Source: Aureimonas sp. AU20
Lineage (GTDB): Bacteria; Pseudomonadota; Alphaproteobacteria; Rhizobiales; Rhizobiaceae
Length of the DNA: 64,000 bases
NCBI RefSeq assembly: GCF_001442755.1
Contig: NZ_CP006367.1
Span: 496,001 to 560,000 of the forward strand
Reading direction: 5' to 3'
In this document: piece by piece, positions 13,262 through 60,260 of the stretch
Position numbering within the stretch: the first letter of the stretch is position 1
Layout: each line of letters opens with the position of its first letter
Position numbers and translations under genes: made by a program
The notes under the pieces: model-generated
What the model was told of the DNA's origin: nothing
Database searches by the model: none
Seen by the model: only the letters and a program-made list of their open reading frames with translations

Positions 13262-13488
13262 AGCTATGGTCCATCACTGCCTCTACGTCTTCGCTAGGGG
13301 GCAAGACGTGTCGCGCAGGCGGATCAGACCTGCGTAGACGCATCCGAAGTTTCGCTTTTCCGCTTGGATGGTTGCCGATCCTTGCCGCTGCGCCCTCTCA
13401 TCCCGAAGCGACGCGCCTCGTAACATCCCACATCTCGCGCCCGCTCTTCGCTCGCTAATTCTCAAAGAGGTTCCAGAGCAGTCAGGCG
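13262..13488 (+). repeat. copy of the dispersed intergenic element (copy C)
   Basis: It matches the element at 19088-19323 in the same order: a GGGCAAGACGTGTCGCGCAG stretch near 13300, a TTGCCGATCCTTGCCGCTGC stretch near 13371 (four mismatches to the central 27-base core) and a right-end-like CAAAGAGGTTCCAGAGC near 13464. The terminal repeats are decayed. Confidence 0.6.
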
Positions 13489-14055
13489 AGATGTTCGGCG
13501 TTGGTTGGAAGAGAAGGCGGCAAGTGCGCGGCAACCCTTGCCCGTCGGCATTCTGCGGCAGGTAGGCTAACCGCTTTTTCGACCCCTTCCTTTGGGACCC
13601 AGCTTCGAGCGAGGGGCGAATAGCGAAGCGTGGTGGCTTCGAAAGCCGATCCTCACGCCCGACTCCGCTGGCAGCTTCTCCACCGCAAGGCGAACGTGAG
13701 CGGCGAGGCCGGGAAGCGGCGCGATCGCCTCGCACCTAGCGAAGCGCCCTCTTTGCCGGCGACTTTCCAAACAGGTTCTGGGGGCGTTAGGCGAGGTGTT
13801 TGTCTTGGGCAGGAGAGGGCGGCGGCATGCGCGCGGCAAGTTCCTCGCGCGGCAGCAGTCTACGGCAGGCAGGCTAACCGCTCTTTTGGCCCCTCCCTCT
13901 CGGACCCAGCGTCGAGCGAGGGGCGTATAGCGAAGCGTGGCGGTTTCGAAAGCCGATCCTCGCATTCGATTCCTCTAGCAGTTTTCCGCTGCATGCTGGA
14001 CGTGAGCGGCAAGAGCCGAGAGCGGCCCGATCGTCTCACACCCAGCGAGGCGCCC
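13456..14055 (+). repeat. diverged tandem duplication, two units of about 306 bases
   Basis: Bases 13456-13761 repeat as 13762-14068 with an offset of 306-307. Anchors are GGCTAACCGCT at 13565 and 13872, CGAAGCGTGG at 13624 and 13931, CTTCGAAAGCCGATCCTC/GTTTCGAAAGCCGATCCTC, and ACGTGAGCGGC near 13695 and 14001. Identity is roughly four bases in five where checked. The second unit ends at the nuclease gene. Neither unit has a convincing coding frame. Confidence 0.75.
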
Positions 14056-14535
14056 TCAGCCCCTGGTCGGCAGCGCCTGTTTCAAGGCGCCGACCGTCGC
14101 GCACCAGTTGCGGCGCCGTCCGCCGTCATAGGCGTCCACCAGCCCTTCGCGCAGGAGCCGCGTGGCGATGTCGGGCTCGGTCGGGCTTGAGAGATCGGCC
14201 AGGACCCGGCCGAAATACTTGTCGCCGGAAATGCGGCGGAGCTGTACCGGGCCATCGCCGACAAGGGCGGCGAGACGCTCGCGCGCCTGCCAGGCGCTGG
14301 TCCGTTCCGCCTCGCATTGGCCCCGGAGCTCGGGCGCGTCGACATTGCGCAGGCGCACCGCGACGGTCACGCTTTGGAGCGGCCAGATATAGGCCTCGAC
14401 CTCCACCGTGTCCCCGTCGCGAACCTTGATTACCCGCGCCGTGACCGGCCCCGCGATCTCGCGCGGCGGCGTTTCCTCGTCGGCGGCGAGGGCGGGCGTG
14501 AGACCGAGAAAGAGAACGAGGCAGACCAATCGCAT
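14056..14535 (-). CDS. secreted thermonuclease-family (SNase-like) protein
   Basis: 159 residues: a signal peptide (MRLVCLVLFLGLTPALA, cleavage likely after ALA) and one staphylococcal-nuclease-like OB domain. Catalytic positions are recognisable: DGDTVEVE, the arginine and acidic residue in VRLRNVDAPELRGQCEAE, and YFGRVLADL with the second catalytic arginine. It would be periplasmic or extracellular and cut DNA or RNA with Ca2+. The start at 14535 is supported by AGGAG eight bases upstream. Its last codons run into the tandem duplication, so the C-terminus may have been shaped by that event. Confidence 0.85.
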   Translation of the reverse strand: MRLVCLVLFLGLTPALAADEETPPREIAGPVTARVIKVRDGDTVEVEAYIWPLQSVTVAVRLRNVDAPELRGQCEAERTSAWQARERLAALVGDGPVQLRRISGDKYFGRVLADLSSPTEPDIATRLLREGLVDAYDGGRRRNWCATVGALKQALPTRG

Positions 14536-15159
14536 GGAAGCGCTCCTAAGCCCCAAAGATTAAATTCCTATTCTCAAACGTTTAAGGTCGGGTTCGTCTT
14601 CCTCAATAGGCTTCGAAAGAGAGCACATAGAGGTCGAAGGGGTTTGCGCCATCTGCCACATTGGGTGGCCGCGCAAACCATCGCACCTGATAGCCGTAAG
14701 CCAGCCCGGAAGTGGTTTGACCGGCGTCGGCTCCTCGTGAGTGCAGGCCTCGCGCCCATGGCTAAGACGCCTGCCCCATTCACCGATCTCTCCCGGCCCG
14801 CTGGAGCCGTCCCGCCCCATTACAAAGCGCCAATCAGCAAGCGCTCGGCCGGCGTCCCTATCGCAGATGCTCTTACGATCGACGCTCCGGGAAATTGCAT
14901 CACCCTGGGACATCGCCGGCTTTCCCGGACGAGCTATGAGCAGCGAGGCGGACGCCACCTCTGCTACGGCGCCCGCTTGAAATTCAATCTGTCCCTTGGG
15001 GGCTTTCGTCGCTCATATCCCTGCCCTTGAAGTCATCGCAGTCAGGCGCGAACGCCTGTCGTCTCCTCGTCGCCCAACTCTGAACGCTCTCTCAGGAAAC
15101 CGCCCTACCGAGGGGAAGGCCGCGTCCGCTCCCCGGCAACCCGTGCGACTAGCCGCCGA
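14536..15159. other. 624-base intergenic region with a repeat end
   Basis: No convincing gene. Bases 14594-14635 (GGGTTCGTCTTCCTC... then AATAGGCTTCGAAAG) resemble the right end of the dispersed element. Several arginine-rich open frames exist on both strands, but they have no ribosome-binding site or recognisable domain. Confidence 0.5.
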
Positions 15160-15366
15160 TCAAAAGTCCGAGATAATGCCGTTCTTTTCCCAGTCGCCGT
15201 AGCGGGCCGGCTCGGCGCCGCCGCGCCCGCCTTGTTCGGGCGGCCGCTCGCTGCTGTTCAGCTTTTCCGCCTCGCCGCGCGCCCGGCGCGCCTCGGCCTC
15301 CGCCAGCGCCCGCTGCGCGGCGGGGGAAAGAACGCGCTCCTGCGTTCGGTCGGCTTCGTTGGTCAT
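15160..15366 (-). CDS. DUF1674 / SDHAF4-like succinate dehydrogenase assembly factor
   Basis: 68 residues. The C-terminal signature [20 protein letters not shown] is the DUF1674 (Sdh8/SDHAF4) motif. Eukaryotic relatives bind flavinylated SdhA and promote complex II assembly; a similar chaperone role is inferred here. The N-terminal half is charged and Ala/Arg-rich. The start MTNEADRTQ at 15366 is set by GAGGAG nine bases upstream. It is divergent from htpX, an arrangement common in Hyphomicrobiales. Confidence 0.85.
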
Positions 15367-15536
15367 CGCAGGGGCTCCTCGTGGGCGGGAAGGCTGGCCT
15401 CCTCGGCCGGCGCGCTTCGTTGACGGGCCGGCAGGTCGGCCCCACATCCTATGCCGTGGCAGATCGGTCGAAACGGCGCCGACCGCAAGCCCCCAATGGA
15501 TTTCACGGCGCGCCGGGGCGAGGAACGATCCGACCC

Positions 15537-16514
15537 ATGAACCAGATCAAGACGGCCATGCTGCTTGCCGGGATGACCGCCCTTTTCATGGGCGTCGGCT
15601 TCCTGCTCGGCGGGCGCGGCGGCATGATGATCGCCTTCCTGTTCGCGCTCGCCACCAATCTCTTTTCTTACTGGAACGCCGACAAGCTGGTGCTGCGCAT
15701 GTACGACGCGCACGAGGTGGACGAGCGCACCGCGCCCGATCTTTACCGCATGGTGGCGGTCCTGTCCGAGCGTGCCGGCCTGCCCATGCCCCGCGTCTAT
15801 CTCATCGAGAACGACCAGCCCAACGCCTTCGCCACCGGCCGCAATCCGCAAAACGCGGCGGTGGCCGCGACGACCGGTCTTCTGGCTCGCCTGACGCCGG
15901 ACGAGGTGGCCGGGGTCATGGCGCACGAGCTCGCCCATGTGCAGAACCGCGACACGCTGACCATGACCGTCACCGCGACACTGGCCGGCGCGATCTCCAT
16001 GCTCGGGAATTTCGCCTTCTTCTTCGGCGGCCACCGCGAGAACAACAATCCGCTGGGCCTGATCGGCATCCTGGTGGCGACGCTGGTCGCGCCCTTCGCG
16101 GCGATGATCGTGCAGATGGCGATCTCGCGCACGCGCGAATATTCCGCCGACCGGCGCGGCGCGGAAATCTGCGGCAACCCTCGCGCGCTCGCCTCGGCCC
16201 TGGCCAAGATCGCCGGCTCGGCGGGGCACAGCGTCAACATAGAGGCCGAGCGCAATCCCGCGACCGCGCATATGTTCATCGTCAACCCGCTGAACGGGCA
16301 GCGCATGGACAGTCTCTTCTCCACCCATCCGGACACGCAGAACCGGATCGACGCGCTTCTGACGATGGAAGGCGAGGGCGGCTTTTCCGGTGGCTTCATC
16401 CCGCCCGCCGCCGCCGCGCCCCGGCGCGTGGCCCGTTCGGGACCCTGGGGCCGGGGCTCCGTGCCGCCGCACGGCGGCTCGAGCGGCGCTGGCGGGCCGG
16501 GGCCTTGGGGCTGA
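15537..16514 (+). CDS. htpX: membrane zinc metalloprotease HtpX
   Basis: 325 residues. Two N-terminal membrane helices, the zinc motif [10 protein letters not shown] (HExxH) near residue 130, two further helices, and the third ligand region [15 protein letters not shown] (E in EYSAD). HtpX degrades misfolded membrane proteins with FtsH. The C-terminal 45 residues are Gly/Pro/Ala-rich and extend beyond Escherichia coli HtpX, as in other alphaproteobacteria. The start ATG 15537 follows a GAGGAACGATC stretch. It converges on nhaA with nine bases between the stops. Confidence 0.93.
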
Positions 16515-16523
16515 GAAGGTGCC

Positions 16524-17738
16524 TTAAGCTGCCCGCAGGCGCGTCGGCACTAGCCGCAGCACCAGCGCGCCGAGGCACCCCGAGGTGAGCGATCCGAGAA
16601 GCACGCCGAGCTTCACCTCGTCCTGCAGCGTGGGCGAGGTGGGAAAGGCGAGAAGGCCGATGAAAAGGCTCATGGTGAAGCCGATGCCGCAGAGGAGCGC
16701 CACGCCATAGACTTGCGCCCAGGTGGCGCGCTCGGGCACGCTGGCCCAGCCCGCGGAGACGGCAAGGCGCACCATGGCGAAGACGCCGATCTGCTTGCCG
16801 AGAAACAGCCCCGCCGCGATGCCGAGGGGAACGGGGTCGAGCAGCGCGGCCGGGGAGAAGCCGGCAAAGGACACGCCCGCATTGGCGAAGCCGAAGAGCG
16901 GCACGATCAGGAAGGCGACCGTGGGCTGGATCGCGTGTTCCAGCCGGAGAAGCGGCGGGGCCTCGCGCTGCAGGCCGGGTGCCGCCACCCTGAGTGGAAT
17001 GGCGAGCGCCAGCAAGACGCCCGCCAGCGTCGCGTGGACGCCCGACAGGAAGACCAGCGCCCAGAGAACCGCGCCGAGCGCGAGATAGGGCGCGAGATGC
17101 GTGACGCCGCGCCGGTTGAGAAGCGCGAGCAGCACGACCACGCCGCCCGCGCCGGCCAGCGCGAGAAGGTCGAGTTCGGCGGTGTAGAAGAGCGCGATGA
17201 TGAGAACCGCGCCGAGATCGTCGAGGATCGCTAGTGCCGCCAGGAAGACCTTCAGCGACGGCGGCACGCGCGAGCCGATGAGCGACAGGACGCCGAGCGC
17301 GAAGGCGATGTCGGTTGCCGCCGGAATGGCCCATCCGCCCCGGCTCTCCGGCGAGGCGGCGTTGAAAGCGAGATAGATCAGCGCCGGCATTGCCATGCCG
17401 CCGAGCGCGGCCAGCCCCGGCAGAACGCGCGCCTGCCAGCTGGCAAGCTGCCCGCCCAGCACCTCCCGCTTGATCTCCAGCCCGACCAGCAGGAAGAACA
17501 GCGCCATCAAGGCGTCGTTGATCCAATGAAGCAGCGACAGCCCGCCGAGATCAGCATGGAGCGCCGCGAAATAAACCGGCGCCAGCGGCGAGTTGGCCAC
17601 CACCAGCGCCAGCGCCGCCGCCGCCATCAGCACCAAGCCCGCCGCGCTTTCGCTTGCCAGGAAGCGCGAGAGCGCACCGGCGGGGTGCGGCGCGGCTGGG
17701 GGCGGCATACGTGGTTGAGACGGATCGCGCGAGGACAT
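16524..17738 (-). CDS. nhaA: Na+/H+ antiporter NhaA
   Basis: 404 residues, 11-12 helices. The pair of transport aspartates (Asp163/Asp164 in Escherichia coli) is visible as [37 protein letters not shown] and the [20 protein letters not shown] block are further NhaA signatures. It exchanges protons for sodium or lithium across the inner membrane for pH and salt homeostasis. I start at ATG 17738 (MSSRDPSQP), which has GGGAAGG seven bases upstream; an upstream ATG at 17771 would add 11 residues without a better site. No nhaR-type regulator is adjacent. Confidence 0.93.
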
Positions 17739-18379: not shown

Positions 18380-18402
18380 TCGCCACGGCGGGGCGCGTAC
18401 TC

Positions 18403-19087: not shown

Positions 19088-19323
19088 GAGACTGTTTGAC
19101 AACCCGGGCGGGTCGGTCCGCAGACGCATTTCCGCCGTCGCCCCAGGGCGAGACATGCCGCGCAGGCGCGGCAGTGCTGCGCAAGCGCATCAGATGTCTC
19201 GTCCGTCCGCATGGACCGTTGCCAATCCTCGCCGATGCGCCCTTACATCACTCAAGTTTGGCGGCTCTCGAACATCAAAAAATCACTTGGCGGGCCTCCG
19301 CCGTCGGGTCGTCAAACAGTCTC
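19088..19323. repeat. MITE-like element with 13-bp terminal inverted repeats (copy A, best preserved)
   Basis: The 236-base segment begins GAGACTGTTTGAC (19088-19100) and ends GTCAAACAGTCTC (19311-19323), a perfect inverted pair that extends with about two mismatches to 20 bases. It has no coding capacity. Its interior holds a 27-base core (19217-19243) that is identical in the copy near 58.1 kb. Flanking target-site duplication was not obvious. It lies between the ankyrin gene and rsmB. Confidence 0.75.
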
Positions 19324-20875: not shown

Positions 20876-21560
20876 GGGGGCGTTCCGAGGCTGTAAGGGC
20901 AGACCAGAAGGGTCGGTCTCGCCGTCGGTTGCGCTAGGGGCGAGACCGGGGACGGGCTCAGGTGGACGGGCGGGGTAGCTGCGCGCTGTCGTGCGTCACC
21001 AGCCCGCCCGGGCCGACACGAGACCTACCCATGAAGCATAACCGCTTCGGCGCGTTCGCACGGCTTCGGGGCGATCGGAAAGCAGTCGGCGGGCGTCTTC
21101 ACTGAGGTTGCGGGGAGGAGCGCAATCCCATCCACTAGACCTCCATGGGGGAAGCCATGCGGCCGGTCTGATCTTGGAGGTATGGGAACCCTTATCCAGG
21201 CGCGCCTTCCCTCGCAAGGTCAGTAGGCGAGTCCGATCCGAGCGTGTTGCTTTCTGGAGCATCGCTGGAAACCGGGGCGGGTCGATCCTGCGGCTCCTTT
21301 GCACCTCCGCCCGGAGCGAGCCACGCGGTCCGCCTGCGCGCGGGGAAAGTTGCTGACCCTCTCCGATGCTGCCGGGACTCGCTGCGGTCGGCGCGTCCCG
21401 AACGGTGAAAAACCGATCGCCAACTCTGCGCCGCCGAATGTCTCAGACGGGCTCTCGCTGGACCGGTGGAAGGACGCGTATCCAAACTGTCGCGCAGTGC
21501 CGGTGGGAGCGCGTCCGCCTTTCGCAGCCTTAGCCCACGCCAAAGCCTCCCAAACATTCG

Positions 21561-21796: not shown

Positions 21797-21905
21797 CCCT
21801 GTTTGCCGAAAATCCGGAGCAACACGACGCGCTTGCCGCACCTCCACCCTGCGGCGCAGGCAGGATCGGGGCACAAGGCCGTTCGTGACGGTCGGGAGAG
21901 TTGCG

Positions 21906-23591
21906 ATGACGACGGGATTTGTCGATGAGCCACGCCTCGCGGGACTGATGGTCCGCGAGACGCTGCGCCGCCTGCGCGGCGTCGCGCCGGCCATGGTCGC
22001 GCTCTCGCCGCTGGCCGGGCGGCGCGCGGGAAGTCTGGCGGCCGTGCCGGCCGACTTACGCCGCGCCGAGCCGGGCCTCGTGGAAAGCTTCTATTCCGGC
22101 CATGTCAGGCTCGCCGGCCATGACGTGGAGTTCGGCAGCCGCTCGCCCTTCGCGCTGCGCCAGGCGCCGCGAAGCTGGATGGCGGAGCTGCACGGTTTTG
22201 GCTGGCTGCGCCATTTCACCGAGGCCGGCGACGCGCTCGCGGCCGAGCAGGCGCGCGTGCTGGTGGGCGATTGGCTCGGCTTCGAGCGCCGCGCCCTGCC
22301 GCGCCTCGCCTTCGACCACGAAGTCTCCGCCCGCCGCCTCGTCAGCCTCCTGTCCCATTCGCCGATCGTTCTGGCGCAGGCGGACGAGATGTTCGCGCGG
22401 CGCTTCGAGGCCGGTCTGGCGCGCCAGACGCGCCATCTCGCCCGCGCCGCCGGCTCGGCGCCGGACGGCATGCCGCGCCTTCTCGCCCGCATCGCGCTCG
22501 CCACGGCCGCGCTCTGCCAGCCCGCCCGGCGTTGCGCCGTGCGCGGCGCGGCCAAGCTGCTGGCCGAAGAACTCGACCGGCAGATCCATCCCGACGGGGG
22601 CCACGTCTCGCGCAATCCGGCCGCGATCCCCACGCTTCTGGCCGATCTTCTGCCGCTGCGCCAGCTCTTCGCCCATCGCAACCAGGCGATGCCGCGGGCC
22701 CTGTTCAGCGCCATCGACCGGATGCTGCCGGCGCTGCGCTTCTTTCAGCATGGCGACGGCGCCCTGGCCCTGTTCAACGGCGCGGGGCTCGCCGACCGCG
22801 CGCTGCTGCACCAGCTCCTGCGCTATGACGAGACCTTGGGCGAGCCGGTTTCGGCGCTGCGCCAGTCCGGCTACCAGCGTCTGGCCGCCGGCGGCACCGT
22901 GCTTCTGGCCGACACCGGCCTGCCGCCGGCGCCCGCCGTCGCGGGCGAGGCCCATGCCGGCACGCTGGCCTTCGAGTTCTCCTCCGGCCGTCGCCGCATG
23001 GTGGTCAATTGCGGCGCGACCGTTCGCGCCGAGGATGCCGGCCGGCGCCTGGCGCGCAACACGGCGGCGCATTCGACCCTGGTGCTGGGCGACCATTCCT
23101 CCTCACGCTTCGCCAAGTCGCCCGCGCTGGACCGCTATCTCGGCGTGCCGCTCCTGCCGGGGCCGACCCGCGTTCCCGTCTCGCGCGAGGACACGGGCGA
23201 GGGCCAGCTTCTCACCGCCGCCCATGACGGTTACCGCGTCCCCTTCGGCTTCGTCCACGAGCGCGAGATCCATCTGTCGCGCGACGGGCGGCGCATCGAG
23301 GGCATCGACCGCTTGTTCCAGGCGAACGGCCGCGCCCATCGCCCGGCCTCGGACGAGCCGCTGGGCATGCTGCGTTTCCATCTCCACCCCGACGTGACCG
23401 CCGACGAGACGCCGAGCGGCATCCGCCTCAGCCATGGCGAAGAGGTCTGGTGGTTCCGCAGCGAGGTCGCGGCGCGGCTGGAAGATTCCATCCTCTTCGC
23501 CGACCGGAGCGGCGCGCGGCCGACCCTGCAGATCGGCATCGTGTTCGACCCGATGGAGCGCACCGAACTCGCCTGGTGCTTCGAACGCTGA
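21906..23591 (+). CDS. heparinase II/III family protein
   Basis: 561 residues. The C-terminal half has the heparinase II/III beta-sandwich signature (MVVNCGATVRAEDAGRRLAR, then NTAAHSTLVLGDHSSSRF, with the conserved H and the RNTAAHST block). The N-terminal half is the alpha/alpha toroid (HGFGWLRHFTEAGDALAAEQ, LSHSPIVLAQAD). Such proteins are polysaccharide lyases acting on uronate polymers; alphaproteobacterial members next to rsmB and purH are conserved, but their substrate is undefined. There is no clear signal peptide. GGGAGAG precedes ATG 21906. An element copy begins at its stop codon. Confidence 0.88.
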   Translation: MTTGFVDEPRLAGLMVRETLRRLRGVAPAMVALSPLAGRRAGSLAAVPADLRRAEPGLVESFYSGHVRLAGHDVEFGSRSPFALRQAPRSWMAELHGFGWLRHFTEAGDALAAEQARVLVGDWLGFERRALPRLAFDHEVSARRLVSLLSHSPIVLAQADEMFARRFEAGLARQTRHLARAAGSAPDGMPRLLARIALATAALCQPARRCAVRGAAKLLAEELDRQIHPDGGHVSRNPAAIPTLLADLLPLRQLFAHRNQAMPRALFSAIDRMLPALRFFQHGDGALALFNGAGLADRALLHQLLRYDETLGEPVSALRQSGYQRLAAGGTVLLADTGLPPAPAVAGEAHAGTLAFEFSSGRRRMVVNCGATVRAEDAGRRLARNTAAHSTLVLGDHSSSRFAKSPALDRYLGVPLLPGPTRVPVSREDTGEGQLLTAAHDGYRVPFGFVHEREIHLSRDGRRIEGIDRLFQANGRAHRPASDEPLGMLRFHLHPDVTADETPSGIRLSHGEEVWWFRSEVAARLEDSILFADRSGARPTLQIGIVFDPMERTELAWCFER

Positions 23592-23802
23592 GAGGCGGTT
23601 CGATAAAGCGGTCGGGTCGGTCCGCCGGCGCTTGTCCGCCGTCCCCTAGGGCGAGACATCTGCCGCGTGAGCGGCGCACGGGTGAGCCATCTGCGGTGCT
23701 CGCGCCAATCCGACGCGCTGGCACTGCCGTCCCGCCGTGCCCGGTCAGCGAAGAATCGCTGTCGGACCGACCCGACCGAGTTTCCAAACAGGCTTCGAGA
23801 CC
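23592..23802. repeat. dispersed intergenic element copy B with inverted ends
   Basis: CGGTCGGGTCGGTCCG (23609-23624) and its exact reverse complement CGGACCGACCCGACCG (23763-23778) bound the copy. Outer flanks AGGCGGTTCG and GGCTTCGAGACC are weaker. Bases 23597-23676 align with 19093-19170 of copy A at roughly four bases in five. It is non-coding. Confidence 0.7.
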
Positions 23803-24081: not shown

Positions 24082-24563
24082 GGCTAGACGTTCAGTTACC
24101 CCGCCATCGGCTGCGCCCGGCTGCATTTCGCGGTCAAAAAGCACCTAGCGAACATCTCGTGGGGACAGCTAGTCGGGTCCATTTCGCCGTGGACTTCGTC
24201 TCAAATGCTTGGCCCTGCGTGCTCGCACGATTGCGTCTCGCTCCACGACGATAAACAGAAATCCCTCCGGCCATCCTCCGCCCGGAGGTTCTGTCAGACG
24301 CTCCAAGGCACTGACCGCAGCTGCCGCGTCCCGACCTGCAACCCGAGCTATGTCAGCCGGCTTGGTTCAATGCTTGAAACGAGATGGAGCCGGCTAAGAT
24401 CGGGCCGAAGTTCCGGGTGAAGGACGGCTGAGGATTGGGTCCGCTGGAGAGGGCGAGTGCCGTCGATATTGGCGGCACAGCTTGAGTCTTTGCGGCGAAG
24501 CGCGCAGGCGAAAGACCCTGGCCCGCCGAGCTGGCAAGTCCTGAAAAGCCCCCGGCGTCCGAT
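24082..24563. other. 482-base intergenic region with element copy K
   Basis: No gene was found. Bases 24195-24318 resemble the right half of the dispersed element (CGACGATAAACAGAAATCCC, then GGCCATCCTCCGCCCGGAGG and TCTGTCAGACGCTCC), matching the order seen near 40.5 kb. The rest carries no recognisable signal. Confidence 0.5.
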
Positions 24564-36486: not shown

Positions 36487-37401
36487 CTACCAGCTTCCCG
36501 ACGAGCCGCCGCCGCCAAAGGACCCGCCGCCGCCCGAGAAGCCGCCGCCGGACGAAGAACCGCCGCCGCCCCAGCCCGAGCCGCCTCCGAACCCACCGCC
36601 CCAGCCGGGGCTGATGGGAATGGCGCGTCGGCGCCGGCGGGCGGGCATGGCCGAGCCGCCGTCCGGCCCGCTTCCGGGGCCTCCGCGCCCGCCGCCGAAA
36701 AGGCGCGACAGGAGGGCGGCCAGAAGCGGGCCGACGGCGACGAAGAGAATGAAGAGGATGACCGCAAGGCTCAGCCAGCCATCCGAGCCCTGTCCCTGTC
36801 CCTGCCCCTGGCCCTGCCAGCCTGCGTTACGCTCGGCGCGGGCCTGGACCTCGGCGGCGTCGCCGCCCAGGATCTGCAGGATGGCGTCGGTTCCGGCGCG
36901 GATGCCGCCGGGATAGTCGTTGGCGCGAAAGCGCGGCAGGATGTCGTTCTCGATCACGAGCCGCGACAGCGCGTCGGTCAGCGTGCCCTCCAGCCCATAG
37001 CCGACCTCGATGCGCACGCGCCGGTCGTTCTTTGAAACGAGAAGGATGACGCCGTTGTTCTCACCCTCCCGCCCGATGCCCCAGGCGCGGCCTAGCCGGT
37101 AGCCGTAGTCGGCGATCTCGTACCCTTGCAGATCGGGCACGGTGGCGACCACGACCTGATCGCTGGAGCGCTGCTCGAAGGCCTCGAGCTTTTGCGTCAG
37201 CTCCGCCTTCGTGGCCGTGTCCAGAAGGCCCGCGCTGTCCACCACCCGGCCGGAAAGCGGCGGGAAGGTCTGCGCCAGGGCTGGCCCCGCAAGGGCAAAC
37301 CCCACGAAAAGCGGGAGCGTCAGAAGGGCCAGCAGCCAGAGCGCGGCGAGCGCCGAGGCGCGAACCGGCCGCTTTGTCTGACGGGCAGGATGGGCGCGCA
37401 T
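36487..37401 (-). CDS. secreted/membrane TPM-domain protein, YgcG-like
   Basis: 304 residues. A signal or anchor helix (ALWLLALLTLPLFVGFALAG), a TPM domain (LSGRVVDSAGLLDTATKAEL, then VVVATVPDLQGYEIADYGYR, NNGVILLVSKNDRRVRIEVG, and GYGLEGTLTDALSRLVIEND), one transmembrane helix near residue 225 and a glycine/serine-rich C-terminus ending GSSGSW, all typical of YgcG. The start MRAHPARQTKRPVRA at 37401 avoids a proline-rich extension that overlaps lemA. It sits between lemA (13-base gap) and the second TPM gene. Confidence 0.88.
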   Translation of the reverse strand: MRAHPARQTKRPVRASALAALWLLALLTLPLFVGFALAGPALAQTFPPLSGRVVDSAGLLDTATKAELTQKLEAFEQRSSDQVVVATVPDLQGYEIADYGYRLGRAWGIGREGENNGVILLVSKNDRRVRIEVGYGLEGTLTDALSRLVIENDILPRFRANDYPGGIRAGTDAILQILGGDAAEVQARAERNAGWQGQGQGQGQGSDGWLSLAVILFILFVAVGPLLAALLSRLFGGGRGGPGSGPDGGSAMPARRRRRAIPISPGWGGGFGGGSGWGGGGSSSGGGFSGGGGSFGGGGSSGSW

Positions 37402-45972: not shown

Positions 45973-46875
45973 ATGTCCATTCTCGTTGACAAGACCACCA
46001 AGATCATCGTGCAGGGCCTGACCGGCAAGACCGGCACGTTCCACACCGAGCAGGCGCTGGCCTATCACGGCACGCAGATGGTCGCCGGCATCCACCCCAA
46101 GAAGGGCGGAGAGACCTGGACCGGCTCGAAGGGCGAGAGCCTGCCGATCTACGCCACGGTCGCCGAGGCGCGTGACGCCACGGGCGCCAACGCCTCCGTG
46201 ATCTATGTGCCGCCCGCCGGCGCGGCCGACGCCATCATCGAGGCGATCGAGGCCGAGATCCCGTTCATCACCTGCATCACCGAGGGCATTCCGGTGCTCG
46301 ACATGGTGCGCGTCAAGGCTCGCCTGGAGAAGTCGAAGTCGCGCCTTCTCGGCCCCAACTGCCCCGGCATCATGACGCCGGACGAGTGCAAGATCGGCAT
46401 CATGCCCGGCTCGATCTTCAAGAAGGGCAATGTCGGCATCGTCTCGCGCTCCGGCACGTTGACCTACGAGGCGGTGTTCCAGACCACCAACGAGGGCCTC
46501 GGCCAGACCACGGCGGTCGGCATCGGCGGCGACCCGGTCAAGGGCACCGAGTTCATCGACGTGCTGGAGATGTTCCTGGCCGACGACGAGACCAAGTCGA
46601 TCATCATGATCGGCGAGATCGGCGGCGCGGCCGAGGAAGACGCGGCGCAGTTCCTGATCGACGAGGCCAAGCGCGGCCGCAAGAAGCCGATGGCCGGATT
46701 CATCGCGGGCCGCACGGCGCCCAAGGGCCGCACGATGGGCCATGCCGGCGCCGTCGTCTCCGGCGGCAAGGGCGACGCGGAATCCAAGATCGCAGCCCTG
46801 GAAGCGGCTGGCATCCGCGTCTCGCCTTCGCCGGCGCGCCTCGGCAAGACGCTGGTGGAAGTTCTCAAGGGCTGA
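45973..46875 (+). CDS. sucD: succinyl-CoA synthetase alpha subunit
   Basis: 300 residues. The CoA-binding Rossmann domain ([28 protein letters not shown]-like HPKKGGETW) and ligase domain. The phosphorylated active-site histidine is in the [20 protein letters not shown] block near residue 250. The [20 protein letters not shown] and [20 protein letters not shown] segments are typical. It pairs with SucC. It lies 238 bases after sucC, longer than usual, and 287 bases before sucA. The start at 45973 follows AGAAGAGATCGGAA. Confidence 0.97.
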
Positions 46876-46928: not shown

Positions 46929-47035
46929 TCCGACAAGACGAAGCCGCGCGGCTGACCTGGCCCGCGCGGCCTTCGCGCAAGGTAAAGCCGGGTAAGAGTC
47001 CGGCTGGAAGTTCGGTGACGGAAAAGCCCCGCAAG

Positions 47036-47073
47036 GCCGACCCGACCGAGATTCCGAGCGGGCTCTTAGAGCG
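47036..47073 (+). repeat. dispersed element right end in the sucD-sucA spacer
   Basis: GGCCGACCCGACCGAG then ATTCCGAGCGGGCTCTTAGA follows the layout of copy B's right end at 23761-23802 (GGACCGACCCGACCGAG and TTTCCAAACAGGCTTCGAGA). It is partial. Confidence 0.5.
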
Positions 47074-47162: not shown

Positions 47163-50100
47163 ATGGCACGCAACCCGGCGAACGAATCCTTCGCGCAGAC
47201 CTCGTTCCTCTACGGCGGAAACGCCGATTATATCGAGGAACTGGCGGCTGCCTTCGAGCGCGATCCTTCCTCCGTGTCGGAGGAATGGCGCTCCTTCTTC
47301 GGCGCGATGGCGGACGACAAGGCGACCGTCGTGAAGAACGCCGAGGGTCCGTCCTGGCAGCGCGCCAACTGGCCGATCGCGGCCAATGGCGAACTCGTCT
47401 CCGCGCTCGACAGCAACTGGGGCCAGACCGAGGCCAAGGTCGAGAAGAAGCTGCGCGACAAGGCCGCCGTGGAGGCGCCCAAAGCCGGCGCCGCCGCCCC
47501 GTCCGAGGCCAGCATTCTGCAGGCGACGCGCGATTCTGTGCGCGCCCTCATGCTGATCCGCGCCTACCGGGTGCGCGGCCACCTCCACGCCAAGCTCGAC
47601 CCGCTGGGTCTTGCCAAGCCGGAAGACGACTACAACGAGCTCTCCCCTGAGAACTACGGCTTCACCGCCGCCGATCTCGACCGCAAGATTTTCATCGACA
47701 ATGTGCTCGGCATGGAGTTCGCCACGATCCGCGAGATCGTGGACATTCTGGAGCGCACCTACTGCTCGACCATCGGCGTCGAGTTCATGCACATTTCCAA
47801 TCCGCTGGAGAAGCAGTGGATTCAGGAGCGCATGGAAGGGCCGGACAAGGGCGTCGCCTTCACGCCCGAGGGCAAGCGCGCCATCCTCAACAAGCTGATC
47901 GAGGCCGAGGGCTTCGAGAAGTTCATCGACGTCAAGTACAAGGGCACGAAGCGCTTCGGCCTGGACGGCGGCGAGTCGCTGATTCCCGCGCTCGAGCAGA
48001 TCATCAAGCGCGGCGGCCAGCTGGGCATGAAGGAGATCGTGTTCGGCATGGCCCATCGCGGCCGCCTGAACGTGCTCGCCCAGGTCATGGGCAAGCCGCG
48101 CCGCGCCATCTTCCACGAGTTCAAGGGCGGCTCCTACAAGCCCGAGGACGTCGAGGGTTCGGGCGACGTGAAGTACCATCTGGGCGCTTCGTCGGACCGC
48201 GAGTTCGACCAGAACAAGGTTCACCTGTCGCTGACGGCGAACCCTTCGCATCTGGAAATCGTCAATCCGGTGGTGATGGGCAAAGCGCGCGCCAAGCAGG
48301 ACCAGCTGGGCGGCGGTCGCACCCGCACCGAGTCGGTTCCCGCCGAGGTTCGCGCCGAGGTCCTGCCGCTCCTGATCCATGGCGACGCGGCCTTCGCGGG
48401 CCAGGGCGTCGTGGCGGAATGCTTCGGCCTGTCGGGCCTGAAGGGCCACCGCGTCGGCGGCTCGCTGCACGTCATCATCAACAACCAGATCGGCTTCACC
48501 ACCAATCCGCGCTTCTCGCGCTCCTCGCCCTACCCGTCGGATGTGGCGAAGATGGTCGAGGCGCCGATCTTCCACGTCAACGGCGACGATCCGGAGGCGG
48601 TGACCTACGCCGCCAAGATCGCGATCGAGTTCCGCCAGACCTTCGGCAAGCCGGTCGTCATCGACATGTTCTGCTATCGCCGCTTCGGCCACAACGAGGG
48701 CGACGAGCCGGGCTTCACCCAGCCGATCATGTACCGCAAGATCCGCGAGCAGAAGACGACGCTCGAGATCTACGCCGCCAAGCTCGTGTCGGAAGGCGTG
48801 CTGAGCCAGGACGACGTCGACGCCCGCCGCGCGGAATGGCGCGCCGATCTCGAGGCCGAGTACGAAGCCGGCCAGAGCTACCAGCCCAACAAGGCCGACT
48901 GGCTCGACGGCGCCTGGTCGGGCCTCAAGCGGGCCGACGACGAGGACGAGCAGCGTCGGGGCATCACCGGCGTTCCCGTCAAGTCGCTGAAGGAACTCGG
49001 CCGCAAGCTGACCGAGGTCCCCGCCGACTTCGAGGTCCACAAGACGATCGGCCGCTTCCTCGAAAACCGCGCTAAGCAGATCGAATCGGGCGAGAATCTC
49101 GACTGGGCGACGGGCGAGGCGCTGGCCTTCGCCTCGCTGCTCACCGAGGGCACGCCGATCCGCCTGTCAGGCCAGGATTCCGAGCGCGGCACCTTCTCCC
49201 AGCGCCACTCGGTCCTCTACGATCAGCGCAACGAGAACCGCTACATCCCGCTGTCCAACCTCGCCAAGGGCCAGGCGAACTACGAGGTCATCAACTCGAT
49301 GCTCTCGGAAGAGGCGGTGCTCGGCTTCGAGTACGGCTATTCGCTGGCCGAGCCCAACGCGCTGACGCTCTGGGAAGCCCAGTTCGGCGACTTCGTGAAC
49401 GGCGCGCAGGTGGTGATCGACCAGTTCATCTCGTCGGGCGAAGCCAAGTGGCTGCGCATGTCGGGCCTCGTCATGCTCTTGCCGCACGGCTATGAAGGCC
49501 AGGGCCCCGAGCACTCCTCGGCGCGCCTGGAGCGCTTCCTGCAGGCCTGCGCGCAGGACAACATGCAGGTCGCCAACTGCACGACGCCAGCCAACTACTT
49601 CCACATCCTGCGCCGGCAGATGAAGCGCGACTTCCGCAAGCCGCTGATCCTGATGACGCCGAAGTCCCTGCTGCGCCACAAGCGCGCCGTGTCGGACCTC
49701 GCCGAGTTCGGCGGCGACACCTCGTTCCACCGTCTCCTGTGGGACGATGCCGAGATGAAGCCGAACTCGCTGAACGTGAAGCTCAAGAAGGACAAGGACA
49801 TCCGCCGCGTCGTCCTGTGCACCGGCAAGGTCTATTACGACCTTCTGGAGGAGCGCGAAAAGCGGGGCGTCGACGACATCTACCTCCTGCGCGTCGAACA
49901 GCTCTACCCGTTCCCGGTCAAGGCGCTGGTCAACGAGCTGTCGCGCTTCAAGGATGCGGAGATCGTCTGGTGCCAGGAGGAGCCCAAGAACATGGGCGCC
50001 TGGAGCTTCATCGAGCCCTATTTGGAATGGGTGCTGGATCGCATCGGCGGCACCAAGCGCCGCGCCCGCTACGCCGGGCGCCAGGCCGCGGCCTCGCCGG

Positions 50101-50177
50101 CGGTCGGCACCATGTCGAAGCATATCGCGCAGCTGGAAGCCTTCCTCGAGGAAGCTCTCGGCGACGCGGCGGCCTGA
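47163..50177 (+). CDS. sucA: 2-oxoglutarate dehydrogenase E1 component
   Basis: 1,004 residues, typical of OdhA/SucA. A thiamine-diphosphate enzyme that decarboxylates 2-oxoglutarate and passes succinyl to the E2 lipoyl arm. Visible: the N-terminal E2-binding segment with QTSFLYGGNADYIEELAAAF, the HRGRLNVLAQVMGKP motif near residue 295, HVNGDDPEAVTYAAKIAIEF, the ThDP site block GDAAFAGQGVVAECFGLSGL, and the transketolase-like C-terminus (FGYSLAEPNALTLWEAQFGD, LPHGYEGQGPEHSSARLERF). I start at ATG 47163 (MARNPANESF); upstream in-frame sequence is Arg/Pro-rich repeat DNA. Confidence 0.97.
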   Translation: MARNPANESFAQTSFLYGGNADYIEELAAAFERDPSSVSEEWRSFFGAMADDKATVVKNAEGPSWQRANWPIAANGELVSALDSNWGQTEAKVEKKLRDKAAVEAPKAGAAAPSEASILQATRDSVRALMLIRAYRVRGHLHAKLDPLGLAKPEDDYNELSPENYGFTAADLDRKIFIDNVLGMEFATIREIVDILERTYCSTIGVEFMHISNPLEKQWIQERMEGPDKGVAFTPEGKRAILNKLIEAEGFEKFIDVKYKGTKRFGLDGGESLIPALEQIIKRGGQLGMKEIVFGMAHRGRLNVLAQVMGKPRRAIFHEFKGGSYKPEDVEGSGDVKYHLGASSDREFDQNKVHLSLTANPSHLEIVNPVVMGKARAKQDQLGGGRTRTESVPAEVRAEVLPLLIHGDAAFAGQGVVAECFGLSGLKGHRVGGSLHVIINNQIGFTTNPRFSRSSPYPSDVAKMVEAPIFHVNGDDPEAVTYAAKIAIEFRQTFGKPVVIDMFCYRRFGHNEGDEPGFTQPIMYRKIREQKTTLEIYAAKLVSEGVLSQDDVDARRAEWRADLEAEYEAGQSYQPNKADWLDGAWSGLKRADDEDEQRRGITGVPVKSLKELGRKLTEVPADFEVHKTIGRFLENRAKQIESGENLDWATGEALAFASLLTEGTPIRLSGQDSERGTFSQRHSVLYDQRNENRYIPLSNLAKGQANYEVINSMLSEEAVLGFEYGYSLAEPNALTLWEAQFGDFVNGAQVVIDQFISSGEAKWLRMSGLVMLLPHGYEGQGPEHSSARLERFLQACAQDNMQVANCTTPANYFHILRRQMKRDFRKPLILMTPKSLLRHKRAVSDLAEFGGDTSFHRLLWDDAEMKPNSLNVKLKKDKDIRRVVLCTGKVYYDLLEEREKRGVDDIYLLRVEQLYPFPVKALVNELSRFKDAEIVWCQEEPKNMGAWSFIEPYLEWVLDRIGGTKRRARYAGRQAAASPAVGTMSKHIAQLEAFLEEALGDAAA

Positions 50178-54557: not shown

Positions 54558-54622
54558 CGCAGGGCGCCAAACCTTTAGAACTCGGAAAGATTTCGCGGGT
54601 CAAAGTCCCAACACGAGGTTGC

Positions 54623-56566: not shown

Positions 56567-56734
56567 GGAAGCCTCCCCATCTGCCACTGAATGAAAGGAC
56601 AAGCGGAGTCGCCGCAAATGGTTCCGACAGAGGAGGGCGCTGGGAAAGCCCCGCTTCCTCATCGTCAGGCTTGAAGCACCTGACAAGACTGCAAGGCGTT
56701 AGCTGATCGGGTGTTTTTTACTCTCTTTCCCTGA

Positions 56735-56823
56735 AGGCTCGGCCTTTCGCCCTCCATCACTTTCGCTTCGCCTTCAGCCTCCAAAACCTTTCCAGCCTTC
56801 CTCCGCAGACAGGTCTGCCCGGC
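56735..56823 (+). repeat. dispersed element copy M (right half)
   Basis: GAAGGCTCGGCCTTTCGCCC, then CCAAAACCTTTCCAGCCTTC and CTCCGCAGACAGGTCTGCCC follow the order seen at 40464-40573. It lies in the 261-base spacer 56567-56827 before the TraB-like gene end. Confidence 0.45.
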
Positions 56824-56827
56824 GCCT

Positions 56828-57877
56828 TTAATCGGCGCGCGTCACCTGCCAGCCGGCGCGGCGCAGGCTTTCCACGAGGCCGGTCTCGCCGGGCAGATGC
56901 AGCGCGCCCACCGCGACGAAGAGCCCGCCGCGTGCCAGCAGAGGCTGAAGCCGCTCGCTCATCACCGCATTGCGGCGATGCACCACCGCCTCGTCGAAGC
57001 GTTGCGTCACCTCCAACGAGCGCGCCTCGTCGGTGCCGGAGGGGGCGAGCGCCGTGGTCGCGGGCTCGATCAGGGCGATGCGATCCGAAAGATAAAGCTC
57101 GGTCATGGTCTCGAAGAGATCGGGCAGCGTGTCGATGAGATCGAGCGTCGCCACGAGATTGTCGACCTGCAGATCGAGCGGCATGGTGGCGAGCGCCTCC
57201 AGCTGCTCGGTCGCGCTTTCCAGACCTTGGACGGGCTTGCCGCTCTCCTTGGCACGGCTCGCCAAGGCGATGTCCAGCACCTTCGCTCCGCCCTTCATCC
57301 GCTCCGCCTCGCAGGGCGCGACGAGAAGCTGCGTCGCCACGAACCAGGGCTGCAACGTGCGAATGGCGGCGAGCGGCATGGCGCGCTGTTCGAACTGCGG
57401 CGCGAGGCGCGTCATCTCCTGCGCCGGCACGATCGTCTCCAGGGTCTGGCCCGCCGGAAGGGTCGTGAGGTCCGGGCGCGACAGGAGCGCCGTCGCCATG
57501 ACAGCGGGGTCGAGCGCGTCCGTGGTCTCGATCACGAGGCCGGAAGCCTTTGTGAAGGCGGCGTCGGCCGAGGGCGGAAGGGTGAGAACGCGCGGGTCCG
57601 AGAGATGCATCGTACCGTAGACGAAGGAGGGCGCGACGCCCTCGCGCTCGATCCGAAACAGGCGCCCTTCGCCATTGGGAACGAGAGCCGCCTCGCGCTC
57701 GGCTTCCGCCAGTTTGCCGCTCACGGCGAGCGCGGGAAGCGCGCTCGTGCCGGCCCGGCAGGCCGTCGGCGCGGGTGCTTCGGCCAAGGCCGGCGCGGCG
57801 AGCAGCGCCAGGGCGAGACCGGGGAGAAGCAGGCGCCGCGAGGCGCGGGCGAGGTGGGATGACAGGCGAACGGGCAT
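56828..57877 (-). CDS. TraB/GumN family protein, secreted
   Basis: 349 residues. A signal peptide (LLLPGLALALLAAPALAEA). TraB/GumN signatures: FVYGTMHLSDPRVLTLPPSA with the GxxH motif, the ETTDALDPAVMATALLSRPD segment, and the C-terminal GGLFVAVGALHLPGETGLVE with a second GxxH. The family resembles TIKI metalloproteases; its bacterial role is unknown, and GumN lies in xanthan clusters. I start at ATG 57877 (MPVRLSSHLARASRR). It is predicted periplasmic and monocistronic. Confidence 0.85.
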   Translation of the reverse strand: MPVRLSSHLARASRRLLLPGLALALLAAPALAEAPAPTACRAGTSALPALAVSGKLAEAEREAALVPNGEGRLFRIEREGVAPSFVYGTMHLSDPRVLTLPPSADAAFTKASGLVIETTDALDPAVMATALLSRPDLTTLPAGQTLETIVPAQEMTRLAPQFEQRAMPLAAIRTLQPWFVATQLLVAPCEAERMKGGAKVLDIALASRAKESGKPVQGLESATEQLEALATMPLDLQVDNLVATLDLIDTLPDLFETMTELYLSDRIALIEPATTALAPSGTDEARSLEVTQRFDEAVVHRRNAVMSERLQPLLARGGLFVAVGALHLPGETGLVESLRRAGWQVTRAD

Positions 57878-58447
57878 GAGGGTCCAGGCAGATAAGAGGG
57901 TCGGAGGATCAGAAGCGGTCGGAACGTCGGCGAAACGAGGGGCAGGGCGAAGGCGAGCGGGATGGGGCCGCAGTCTCATGGCCATCCGAAGGCGCGCCGG
58001 GCCGCGATGGCGAGGAGTGGGCCGGCGGCGCCTGCCTTTCCCTCTTGGCGCCTCGCGCCTTGGAGCCCGTCCGAAAGGTTTGCTGTGTCGGCTCAACGGG
58101 TCCTTTCGCCTCCGACTTCGTTGCCAATCCTCGCCGATGCGCCCTCGCATCGACTGCGTTTGGCGCCTCGTGGAACGACAAAATCCCTCGTTGATCCTCT
58201 GCAGGGGACTTTCCGGACGCGCTCTTTGGAGCGGCTGACGAAACCTCTGCGCCGGGCATGGTTAGGGGATCTCGGGTGCAGACGAGCCCCTCGACTCTCG
58301 GAATGCCGGGGGGCGGTGCAAGGCCTTCGCACCGACATCCTCGCCCAAAAGAACCGGCCCGCCGACCTCGCGAGGGTCTTTCCGGCGCTCTCGGGCCTGC
58401 CGCTCGGGCGCGCTTTCTGGCGCCGCCCGCCCTCGTGCTGCGGCTCG
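57878..58447. other. 570-base intergenic region containing element copy D
   Basis: Bases 58085-58235 are an element copy: the central 27 bases (58119-58145) equal 19217-19243 exactly, followed by TTTGGCGCCTCGTGGAACGA and GGACTTTCCGGACGCGCTCT. The rest shows only arginine-rich frames without ribosome-binding sites. Confidence 0.6.
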
Positions 58448-59404
58448 TCACGCCGCGCCGCGCCGGGCGCGGGGATGGGCGTCGTCGTAGATCTGTAGAA
58501 GGCGGTTGCCTTCGATCGCGGTATAGACCTGCGTCGAGGAAAGCGAGGCGTGGCCCAGGAGATCCTGGATCGCACGAAGGTCCCCGCCCTTCGCCAGGAG
58601 ATGGGTGGCGAAGGAATGGCGCAGCGCATGGGGCGTCGCGGAATCGGGCAGGCCGAGAAGCCCGCGCAGCCGCTGCATCTCGCGCTGGATGATGCCTGGC
58701 CCGAGCGGGCCGCCCCGCGCGCCGCGAAACAGCGGCTTGTCCGCCGAGAGCGCGTAGGGGCAGAGGCGGCGATAGGTGCTGGCGGCCTCCAGAACGGCGG
58801 GCAGGAGCGGCACGAGCCGCTGCTTGTTGCCCTTGCCGGTGATGATCATAGAGCGGGCCTTGGGGTCGGCCAGCGCTTCTCCCGGCAGGTTCAGCGCCTC
58901 GGAAATGCGCAGGCCGCAGCCATAGAGCAGCACCATCACCGCCGTGTTGCGCGCCGCGATCCAGGGCTCGGCCGCCATGGCGCCGACCTCTTCGGTCACG
59001 GCCAGCGCGTCGGGCACGCTCAAGGGGCGCGGCAGGGATTTCGGCCGCTTGGGCGCGCGCATCGACGCCGCGCCCGCCCCCGAGGCCAGCCCCTCGCGCT
59101 CAAGATACCGCACGAAGGAGCGCACGCCCGACAGATGCCGCCCGAGCGAGCGAGCACACGCGCCCTCGCGGCGGCGATCGGCCAGAAAGGCGCGAAACTC
59201 CGCCGGCTTGAGATCGGCGAGGTCGGGGGGCGCAACCGGGCGCCCCTGGTAGCCGGCGAAGAATTGAAGAAACTGCCGGAGGTCCCGCTCATAGGCCTCC
59301 ACCGTCTGCGGCGAGGCGCGGCGCTCCACCTCCAGCCGGCGCAACCATTCGGCCTTCAGGGCCAGAAGCGGGGAGGTCGCCGAAATCAGAAGCGGGGCGT
59401 TCAT
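58448..59404 (-). CDS. xerC: tyrosine recombinase XerC
   Basis: 318 residues, the XerC/XerD length. The N-terminal SAM-like domain (LEVERRASPQTVEAYERDLR) and catalytic domain with all six positions: Arg in GCGLRISEALNLPG, Lys in ITGKGNKQRLVP, His-x-x-Arg in HALRHSFATHLLAKGG, His in LLGHASLSSTQ and the Tyr nucleophile in TQVYTAIEGNRLLQIYDDAH. With XerD it resolves chromosome dimers at dif. I start at ATG 59404 (MNAPLL). Rhizobial xerC often lies near lpdA. The upstream hairpin and osmC are on the other strand. Confidence 0.92.
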   Translation of the reverse strand: MNAPLLISATSPLLALKAEWLRRLEVERRASPQTVEAYERDLRQFLQFFAGYQGRPVAPPDLADLKPAEFRAFLADRRREGACARSLGRHLSGVRSFVRYLEREGLASGAGAASMRAPKRPKSLPRPLSVPDALAVTEEVGAMAAEPWIAARNTAVMVLLYGCGLRISEALNLPGEALADPKARSMIITGKGNKQRLVPLLPAVLEAASTYRRLCPYALSADKPLFRGARGGPLGPGIIQREMQRLRGLLGLPDSATPHALRHSFATHLLAKGGDLRAIQDLLGHASLSSTQVYTAIEGNRLLQIYDDAHPRARRGAA

Positions 59405-59719
59405 GATGAGCTTTCTCTTCCAAGTCGACGGCGAGCGGGTCGGGCGGGCCGTTTTATAGCCGGGCGGCGCGGGTCTTCGGCGGGGCGCGAGGCGGCGCCG
59501 CGCCGCGTCAGACCCGCCCTTTGGCGGCCCTACGCCATCCTCCACTCTCACAGGTCTTTCGTAAATGAAGCGTTGCGGCGCTGGAAACCGCGACGCCGCG
59601 CCCCAAAACCCTGCCGGGATGTCCTGCGCGCGACCCGACGGGACGCGGCGCGGGGCCGAACAGGGGCATGGACCCCCGGGACGGCGGGCCGCGCCGTCCC
59701 GACCCATTCGAAGGAGACA
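59405..59719. other. divergent xerC-osmC spacer with leader hairpin
   Basis: 315 bases. A perfect 10-bp stem CGGGACGGCG/CGCCGTCCCG (59677-59686, 59692-59701) lies nine bases before the osmC ribosome-binding site AAGGAG (59711). No gene is supported. Confidence 0.5.
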
Positions 59720-60160
59720 ATGATGAAGCGTCATGCAACCGCCATCTGGAACGGAGCGCTGGCAACCGGCAAGGGAAGTCTGACGACCCAGTCCGGCGCG
59801 CTCGACAACCACGGCTATTCCTTCAAGGCCCGGTTCGAGGACGAGACCGGCAAGTCCGGCACCAACCCCGAAGAGCTTCTGGCCGCCGCCCATTCCGGCT
59901 GCTTCGCCATGCAGCTCTCGCATTTCCTGGCCGAGAACGGCACGCCCGCCGACGAGCTGAAGGCGCGCGCCGTGGTCAGCGTCGAGCAGGCCGCCGCCGG
60001 CGGCTTCGAGGTGCGCTCCAGCGCCATCACGCTGGAAGCCAAGGTGCCCGGCATCGACGACGCCACGTTCCAGCAGCTCGCCACCAAGGCCAAGGAAGGC
60101 TGCCCGATCTCCAAGGCGCTCGGCGCCATCGAGGTCTCGCTCGACGCCAAGCTGGTCTGA
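59720..60160 (+). CDS. osmC: OsmC family peroxiredoxin-like protein
   Basis: 146 residues. Reduces organic hydroperoxides with paired thiols. Catalytic cysteines: AAAHSGCFAMQLSHFLAENG near residue 58 and AKEGCPISKALGA near residue 128. The N-terminal half (HATAIWNGALATGKGSLTTQ) and EELLAAAHSGC are typical OsmC. AAGGAG seven bases upstream of ATG 59720. A hairpin in the leader might modulate translation or transcription. It is followed by a terminator. Confidence 0.93.
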   Translation: MMKRHATAIWNGALATGKGSLTTQSGALDNHGYSFKARFEDETGKSGTNPEELLAAAHSGCFAMQLSHFLAENGTPADELKARAVVSVEQAAAGGFEVRSSAITLEAKVPGIDDATFQQLATKAKEGCPISKALGAIEVSLDAKLV

Positions 60161-60174
60161 GCGATTTTTCGAGG

Positions 60175-60200
60175 GGAAGCCCGCCGCGTGGCGGGCTTTC
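60175..60200 (+). terminator. terminator of osmC
   Basis: AAGCCCGCC (60177-60185) and GGCGGGCTT (60190-60198) form a 9-bp stem with a GCGT loop, followed by TCCTGTCT. Confidence 0.7.
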
Positions 60201-60207
60201 CTGTCTC

Positions 60208-60260
60208 TACGGTTTCGAAGCCTATTGGGGAAATTCCGCCGGGTTGGTCCGACCGGGCGG
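60208..60260 (-). repeat. dispersed element end in the osmC-mur spacer
   Basis: GGTTTCGAAGCCTATTGGGG then GCCGGGTTGGTCCGACC matches the reverse complement of copy B's right end. It is partial. Confidence 0.5.

Follow-up and report, generated by a model that had tools for sequence, protein, structure and literature searches.

Elements in the window

The window, a 64,000-nucleotide stretch of the 5.21-Mb, nine-contig genome of Aureimonas sp. AU20 (C1:496001-560000), carries ten copies of a diverged, hairpin-forming repeat that we describe here as a family of miniature inverted-repeat transposable elements (MITEs), the inner core of which may be selected as a single-stranded, probably RNA, structure. 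The copies were found with a profile based on 33 copies from beyond the window and on none from within it, and they scored 13.3 to 125.8 bits, whereas the maximum in 21 controls of 64 kb each (20 dinucleotide-preserving shuffles and the reversed window) was 7.0 bits. They are listed here together with the best core in the window; neighbouring genes are named by their Pfam matches.

19088..19323, minus strand: full-length long-form copy of 236 bp with an extra hairpin module, repeats paired; 125.8 bits
23592..23795, minus strand: full-length copy of 204 bp, terminal repeats paired; 40.3 bits (profile match 23593-23794)
58064..58218, minus strand: nearly complete short-form copy, outermost end decayed; 74.5 bits
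58091..58195, minus strand: inner core of the preceding copy and the best core in the window; 79.1 bits with the core-only covariance model R2
21266..21448, minus strand: decayed copy; 52.6 bits for 21266-21442 (21266-21448 with the first profile)
60219..60358, minus strand: decayed copy beside a Fur-family regulator gene (60372-60797, minus strand); 42.9 bits
13270..13471, minus strand: decayed copy; 30.0 bits for 13353-13470, 28.1 bits for 13270-13471 with the first profile
24159..24285, minus strand: decayed copy; 21.1 bits
47013..47065, plus strand: right-end fragment; 17.4 bits
40425..40555, minus strand: heavily decayed copy, flanked by genes for a DUF429 protein and a carbonic anhydrase; 13.5 bits
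39554..39605, plus strand: right-end fragment just ahead of the DUF429 gene; 13.3 bits

The 236-bp copy has terminal repeats at 19088-19107 and 19304-19323 and is flanked by TGA and GAA, its target-site duplication having been lost. The 204-bp copy follows immediately on the stop codon that ends a heparinase II/III-domain gene (21885-23591), and the fragment at 47013..47065 is flanked by a succinyl-CoA ligase-domain gene (45973-46875) and a 2-oxoglutarate dehydrogenase E1 gene (47163-50177). A preliminary description of this stretch had placed the repeats always outside genes. This holds for the nine neighbouring genes tested, all with Pfam matches, which no copy overlaps; genome-wide, 13 of 63 copies fall inside putative open reading frames returned by a crude caller. 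Of thirteen places that the description had named, nine were recovered (13.3, 19.1, 23.6, 24.2, 39.57, 40.5, 47.05, 58.1 and 60.2 kb) and four were not (14.6, 20.9, 28.65 and 56.75 kb), and the copy at 21.27-21.44 kb was absent from its list. The 27 bases it gave as identical between 19217-19243 and 58119-58145 are indeed so, copies do occur in both orientations (eight minus, two plus), and the conserved end it quoted is the right-hand end of the element. Its wider picture, a dispersed and diverged family of mixed ages, agrees with copies that range from those with intact 3-bp duplications through to end fragments, and the outcomes of the profile, covariance-model, shuffle and relatives comparisons favour it. 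The MITE mechanism with TNA duplications, the end-to-end hairpin and the core common across Pseudomonadota go beyond that description.

Mobility, target and placement

Genome-wide, the end pattern GAGNCTGTTTGGMAAYTCGG occurs at 84 places when up to three mismatches are allowed, compared with two for the reversed pattern. Element ends begin GAGNCTGTTTGGAAA. We extracted 38 elements with paired terminal inverted repeats, 56-254 bp in length; most are 148-185 bp, the longer forms (197-254 bp) contain additional middle sequence, usually one or more extra hairpins, and three are 56-70 bp hairpins without the core. Distinct copies number at least 61 under a rule based only on flanks, 42 of them near full length, and 63 under a looser rule; the count that we claim, 61, is a lower bound, the profile search having been confined to loci fetched from genome searches, and the set of 63 underlies the per-copy figures for position and orientation. 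On the 3.74-Mb contig, which has 46 places (some weak), a stretch of 1.16 Mb (G000:C1:1948241-3107112) is empty of the family, and a gap as large arose in 0 of 20,000 uniform simulations. In own-genome copies with T as the fourth end base (e.g. L032) the tip becomes GAGTC, which matches the methylation site GANTC; DNA methylation sites are reportedly present, to go by the title of a reference, in CIR elements of alphaproteobacteria.

That these copies are one MITE family, and that it has been mobile, is firmly established by clean duplications and an empty orthologous site. Of the 38 paired elements, 14 have identical 3-bp flanks and another 13 have flanks with a single mismatch, whereas shuffled flank pairing gave a mean of 4.9 identical and a maximum of 12 in 10,000. 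All 14 identical flanks are TNA (TAA in seven, TTA in three, TCA in two and TGA in two) and none are inverted matches; they are therefore duplications and not the outer part of a longer inverted repeat. A C stands ahead of the target in 30 of the 38 elements and a G behind it in 28, and the target is therefore CTNAG. The empty site comes from two relatives with flanks 84-87% alike: G015 (L109) reads CCGCCTCA-element-TCACACCATG, that is, TCA-element-TCA, and G004 (L104) reads CCGCCTCACACCATG, with a single TCA. Among 27 relative loci compared, four orthologous groups share a copy. One such copy (L104 1484-1646, with counterparts in L106, L107 and L109) occupies the interval between two genes for ABC-transporter ATPases, putatively urtD/urtE-like from their translation, in four genomes of the genus, and in two of the four part of the core has been lost. 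L118 1501-1661 and L120 1481-1641 are orthologous in position but opposite in orientation, which would fit either an inversion in place or two insertions.

What might have moved these elements? GAG tips are the rule in the IS1031 group of the insertion sequence (IS) family IS5, and both the target and the tips of the Aureimonas elements fit that group. Insertion at TNA, with duplication of 3 bp, is described for IS1031-group elements (PMC12016507), and the TNA target, the 3-bp duplication and the GAG tips are common to this group, to a resident IS of 842 bp (L092, with a TAA/TAA duplication) and to our elements. However, the inner repeat of L092, GAGYTRGGGACAAAAC, is unlike that of the elements, which at 56-254 bp have no room for, and do not contain, such a group's transposase gene. 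A search of the own genome by way of the transposase families PF13340 and PF01609 (eight matches each) gave no IS with matching repeats, and the inner terminal repeat of the elements was absent at the eight PF13340 IS loci near which it was sought; nor was such an IS present among the matches listed for the short end pattern in ten genomes, or in Sphingomonas pokkalii. Repeats with GAGGCTGTGTCAAAA in the relative G011 were considered as an IS and set aside, the one examined fully being another repeat of ~200 bp. The family is thus short, multi-copy and intergenic, with terminal inverted repeats and a target-site duplication, as MITEs are, and is not seen to share its ends with an autonomous element. 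Orphan MITEs are common. Movement was probably in trans, by an IS1031-type transposase of the IS5 family that is now absent or has differing repeats.

Could the elements be host-owned regulatory or terminator hairpins that multiplied, their mobility being incidental? Such an origin would fit the 16 of 63 copies (25%) that directly follow a stop codon, and also the copy that four genomes of the genus share between ABC-transporter ATPase genes. However, the target itself offers such positions: of the intergenic sites in the window, 9% of those reading TNA and 32% of those reading CTNAG are stop codons. Copies come to lie at stop codons because CTNAG sites are often stop codons, and a separate targeting of stop codons, which this accounts for, was rejected. 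Few copies stand at shared positions in relatives, and with the mobility already demonstrated by the duplications and the empty site we consider a host origin very improbable.

Fold and conserved core

A MITE is usually recognised by its conserved ends, its middle being dispensable. In the Aureimonas elements and their relatives, both the fold and the short loop motifs of the inner ~100 nt are retained in bacteria with different outer arms and, often, different ends. Mean identity in relatives is 74-77% for the inner parts, 56-57% for the ends and 47-55% for the middle of the rod, a contrast that is partly a selection effect, since the relatives' copies were chosen by whole-element similarity, which favours a conserved core. 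Folding of one 161-nt copy gives a single rod that runs from end to end (-94.5 kcal/mol, z -8.7), and its complement folds less stably (-78.9 kcal/mol, z -6.45); the sense strand is the more stable in 46 of 49 elements from 13 genomes, with a mean difference of 15.8 kcal/mol over all 49. For the same 49 elements RNAalifold returned 42 column pairs, 33 of them with at least one double change.

The apical core can be written AGGCGC-AAC-GCAG-hairpin-GCGAGGAT-GCAACG, and the inner ~100 nt to which it belongs are conserved with compensatory changes. In a core-only alignment of 22 sequences (A2), 93.1% of cells are paired against 80.6 after shuffling, and 20 of 35 pairs have changed on both sides, which happened in 0 of 500 shuffles. 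With 23 sequences from many lineages, aligned by fitting to the model structure, 93.6% of cells are paired against 64.1% shuffled, and 33 of 35 pairs have double changes. Compensatory changes, the mark of a structured RNA, are therefore present, with the reservation that one of the alignments, A5, is model-fitted. The bases that hardly vary across 27 sequences, one per locus, are AGG, GC, G, A and G before the capping hairpin and GCGA, GA, GC and ACG after it. Those that lie outside helices sit in the internal loops flanking the inner helix, and the capping stem varies freely in pairs (helix 4, seven of eight pairs with double changes). Averaged over columns, conservation in the apical part differs only slightly between unpaired (0.77) and paired (0.74) positions, and the argument from the loops therefore rests on individual bases. 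This pattern, together with the strand preference described below, is what a structure recognised as a single strand through invariant loops would show.

This bears on a simpler account, in which there is only an ordinary MITE family, the core being conserved through recent horizontal transfer and the paired changes arising by template switching between the arms of a quasi-palindrome. Long palindromes are known to correct themselves. Template switching, however, would not hold unpaired loop bases near-invariant while stems change, and the ends evolve faster than the core in relatives, even if the search favoured conserved cores. We return to this account below with the distribution of the core, which speaks on both sides of it.

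Strandedness bears on another account, in which the core is needed for transposition as DNA, as a subterminal hairpin or a host-factor site used by several IS5 groups, and has no RNA function. The cores viewed lie within elements with transposon-like ends, and some elements have two inverted core-like stretches, as expected for a site at each end. The Aureimonas elements, however, have a single central core and not one per end. For 22 of 23 cores the sense strand gives the more stable fold, and for those from outside the model set it does so in 13 of 13; G-U stands to A-C at 54:13; fold stability and a G-U excess that favour one strand are unexpected for recognition of a duplex. Moreover, of the three core-less forms of 56-70 bp, one has an exact TGA duplication and one has TAA/TAG, so the core may be unneeded for transposition. 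We judge a purely DNA role decidedly unlikely.

The core in other Pseudomonadota

How far does the core extend beyond the AU20 genome? An element query at E 1e-3 matched 15 of 81 genomes: the own genome, 10 of 20 others of the genus, 1 of 28 from other genera of the family and 3 of 32 from other families of the order, two of the 15 (G024 and G065) being marginal. The covariance model R1 matched 6 of 385 genomes of the class at E 1e-5, three of them weakly; G343 and G347, from other families, are among the six. An exact scan for the core across 84,980 named species gave 44 stretches, in Aureimonas, Jiella, metagenome-assembled genomes of Rhizobiaceae, Sphingomonas pokkalii and one doubtful Microbacterium. 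The last of these, in Microbacterium telephonicum, reached 15 bits over 38 profile positions only and was taken as a chance or coding match. In the 4.2-Mb genome of S. pokkalii, which belongs to another order, there are five complete copies, 96-99% alike, as the account by recent horizontal transfer would have it. Elements L100 and L101 from same-genus genomes are identical over the compared stretch to L185 and L209 from Aureimonas records.

The core-only model R2 matched 18 of 398 Pseudomonadota genomes at E 1e-5, and none of the 16 other same-family genomes in this phylum sample had a match at that threshold. On the antisense strand of true cores R2 scores up to 42.8 bits from palindromy alone, and therefore only genomes above 46 bits were counted: G806, G802, G596, G611, G664, G783, G786, G803 and G813. 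Matches at about 43 bits or less are explicable by palindromy alone, a point in favour of the ordinary-MITE account, and G492, G534, G538 and G542 (37-41 bits), being within that range, were not used; G580, G662, G703 and G761 (44-46 bits) are possible carriers and were not counted. G414 was also left aside: R1 gave its two copies 41 and 38 bits, and R2 gave one of them 19 bits and listed no match for the other. Its repeats L231 and L235, in a genome of 1.0 Mb, are 94%-identical hairpins with ends AGACCTGTTGCAAAAG and an inner part that is faintly core-like.

Most copies in the nine counted genomes have, by eye, the same inner motif (partly so in G596, G802 and G806) with other arms, and four of these genomes (G611, G783, G786 and G813) have seven or more listed R2 matches each, some of them weak. 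The ends are CTAG-TGTGGTGTTTCAGAAG in G783 and CTAG-TGTRGTGTTTCG in G611. Sought without regard to structure, the exact motif GGCGCVAACSGMAG-N(10-28)-GCGAGGATTKGCAACG is present in 4 of the 398 genomes (G000 2, G664 1, G803 1, G786 11) and the reversed motif in none. Seven plasmids, from Cupriavidus, Mitsuaria, Comamonas and Diaphorobacter, match the G611 element, in its core part only and along 50-67 of the 201 bases. The five of these plasmid copies that we viewed are long hairpins whose arms are unlike others seen, except that the arms of L298 equal those of L300. The Aureimonas element query gave one partial match in the plasmid collection and none in the phage collection, and the G786 and G783 elements had no match in the plasmid collection. 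In L230 and L232, and in loci of G786, G813, G806 and G662, two core-like stretches lie inverted within one unit, the second often scoring only at the level of palindromy.

Matches confined to the core on Burkholderiales plasmids and in several genomes, with arms that look unrelated by eye, speak against an ordinary MITE family spread by recent transfer. Together with the near-invariant loops, they make that account a rather unlikely one, even though the S. pokkalii copies speak for it, as do the Aureimonas-like ends found in genomes of other families, to which we now turn.

Our preferred reading is that the family is one of MITEs and that selection on its core acts on a single-stranded structure, probably of RNA, and we give it a probability of about 0.5. 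Several observations weigh against it. In the 49-element alignment, G-U against A-C is 148:72 over all pairs but only 60:38 in the pairs common to the folds of both strands, and within the own genome it is 18:17 for such pairs. The strand excess in the cores is possibly inflated by the bonus that Vienna gives to G-A mismatches, which would be inherited with the loops, and by the sense-strand choice of hits, and alignments A3-A5, including the 23-sequence pairing result, were fitted to the model structure. Rfam gave nothing at gathering score in the window, two matches that lie off the element at eight loci searched with E up to 1, and none at eleven loci with E up to 0.1. The 16 copies that follow a stop codon are 5 sense and 11 antisense to the abutting gene. 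This mostly antisense placement is unlike the prediction of a simple sense-strand role in mRNA, and orientation was discarded as proof of mRNA function. Lastly, G343 (at least seven copies) and G347 (three), both from other families, carry Aureimonas-like ends, and the G786 ends, TAA-GAGCCTGTTCA, also resemble those of Aureimonas.

If the core does act as RNA, an element landing after a stop codon or between the genes of an operon would be co-transcribed and would form a stable rod. A protein or RNase recognising the two conserved internal loops could then act on the rod RNA in a manner comparable to that of RNase III on Correia elements. In this way the host would tolerate the element, or on occasion retain it, and the element would move using whatever ends the local transposase accepts. 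On a broader and more tentative proposal, to which we give somewhat less than even odds, the apical core may be a structured module in its own right, probably an RNA that some widely conserved protein recognises, and may have spread through Pseudomonadota on successive different ends and arms. We lowered our estimate for this slightly because the ends in G343, G347 and G786 resemble Aureimonas ends.

The window also contains a second repeat, with units at 13536-13751 and 13843-14057, ~307 bp apart and 82% and 76% alike; between these units lies a weak end-like site (13750-13777) that scores 3.5 bits, below control. At 36497-36568 there is a GC-rich 18-bp periodic repeat, rich in CCGCCG.

Known systems and what the family means

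RIME of Rhizobium and CIR of Caulobacter and other alphaproteobacteria are intergenic repeats, and the Aureimonas elements resemble them in this and in host class, a likeness at the level of description. The ERIC elements of enterobacteria are ~127 bp, intergenic and palindromic from end to end, with extra internal modules. The Aureimonas elements are likened to ERIC as intergenic hairpin elements, again at the level of description, but ERIC belongs to another host group, and the part of PMC10969869 available describes no core over different ends. Correia/NEMIS elements of Neisseria are MITEs with terminal repeats, the transcripts of which are cut by RNase III and which can invert in place (PMC10969869, same portion); as MITEs with terminal repeats that form intergenic hairpins they may, by description, be considered analogous to the Aureimonas elements. 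QMITE1 and QMITE2 of Coxiella burnetii are very long palindromic MITEs, some of them transcribed as small RNAs, with short REP-like derivatives, and PMC5896051 reports no relatives of QMITE1 in other genomes; according to the same paper their direct repeats are 2-4 and 7-9 bp, in contrast to the TNA of the Aureimonas elements. We do not file the Aureimonas family under ERIC, Correia/NEMIS or QMITE because the comparison was one of description. Among the papers listed by our literature searches none describes the family to judge by the listings, and the core and end sequence strings, searched for in the text of 5.39 million papers, matched two, both unrelated by title. As far as these searches show, both the family and the sharing of its core across classes, often over different ends, are new.

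At a minimum, these results define a family of repeats, and covariance models for it, that accounts for many of the long spacers in Aureimonas genomes. Should the core have a function of its own, a class of unnamed intergenic repeats in Alpha- and Betaproteobacteria would have that function in common. The family would then also reverse the usual logic of MITEs, in which the ends are conserved and the middle is free, and would be a natural case of a small structured element that survives by switching its mobilising transposase.

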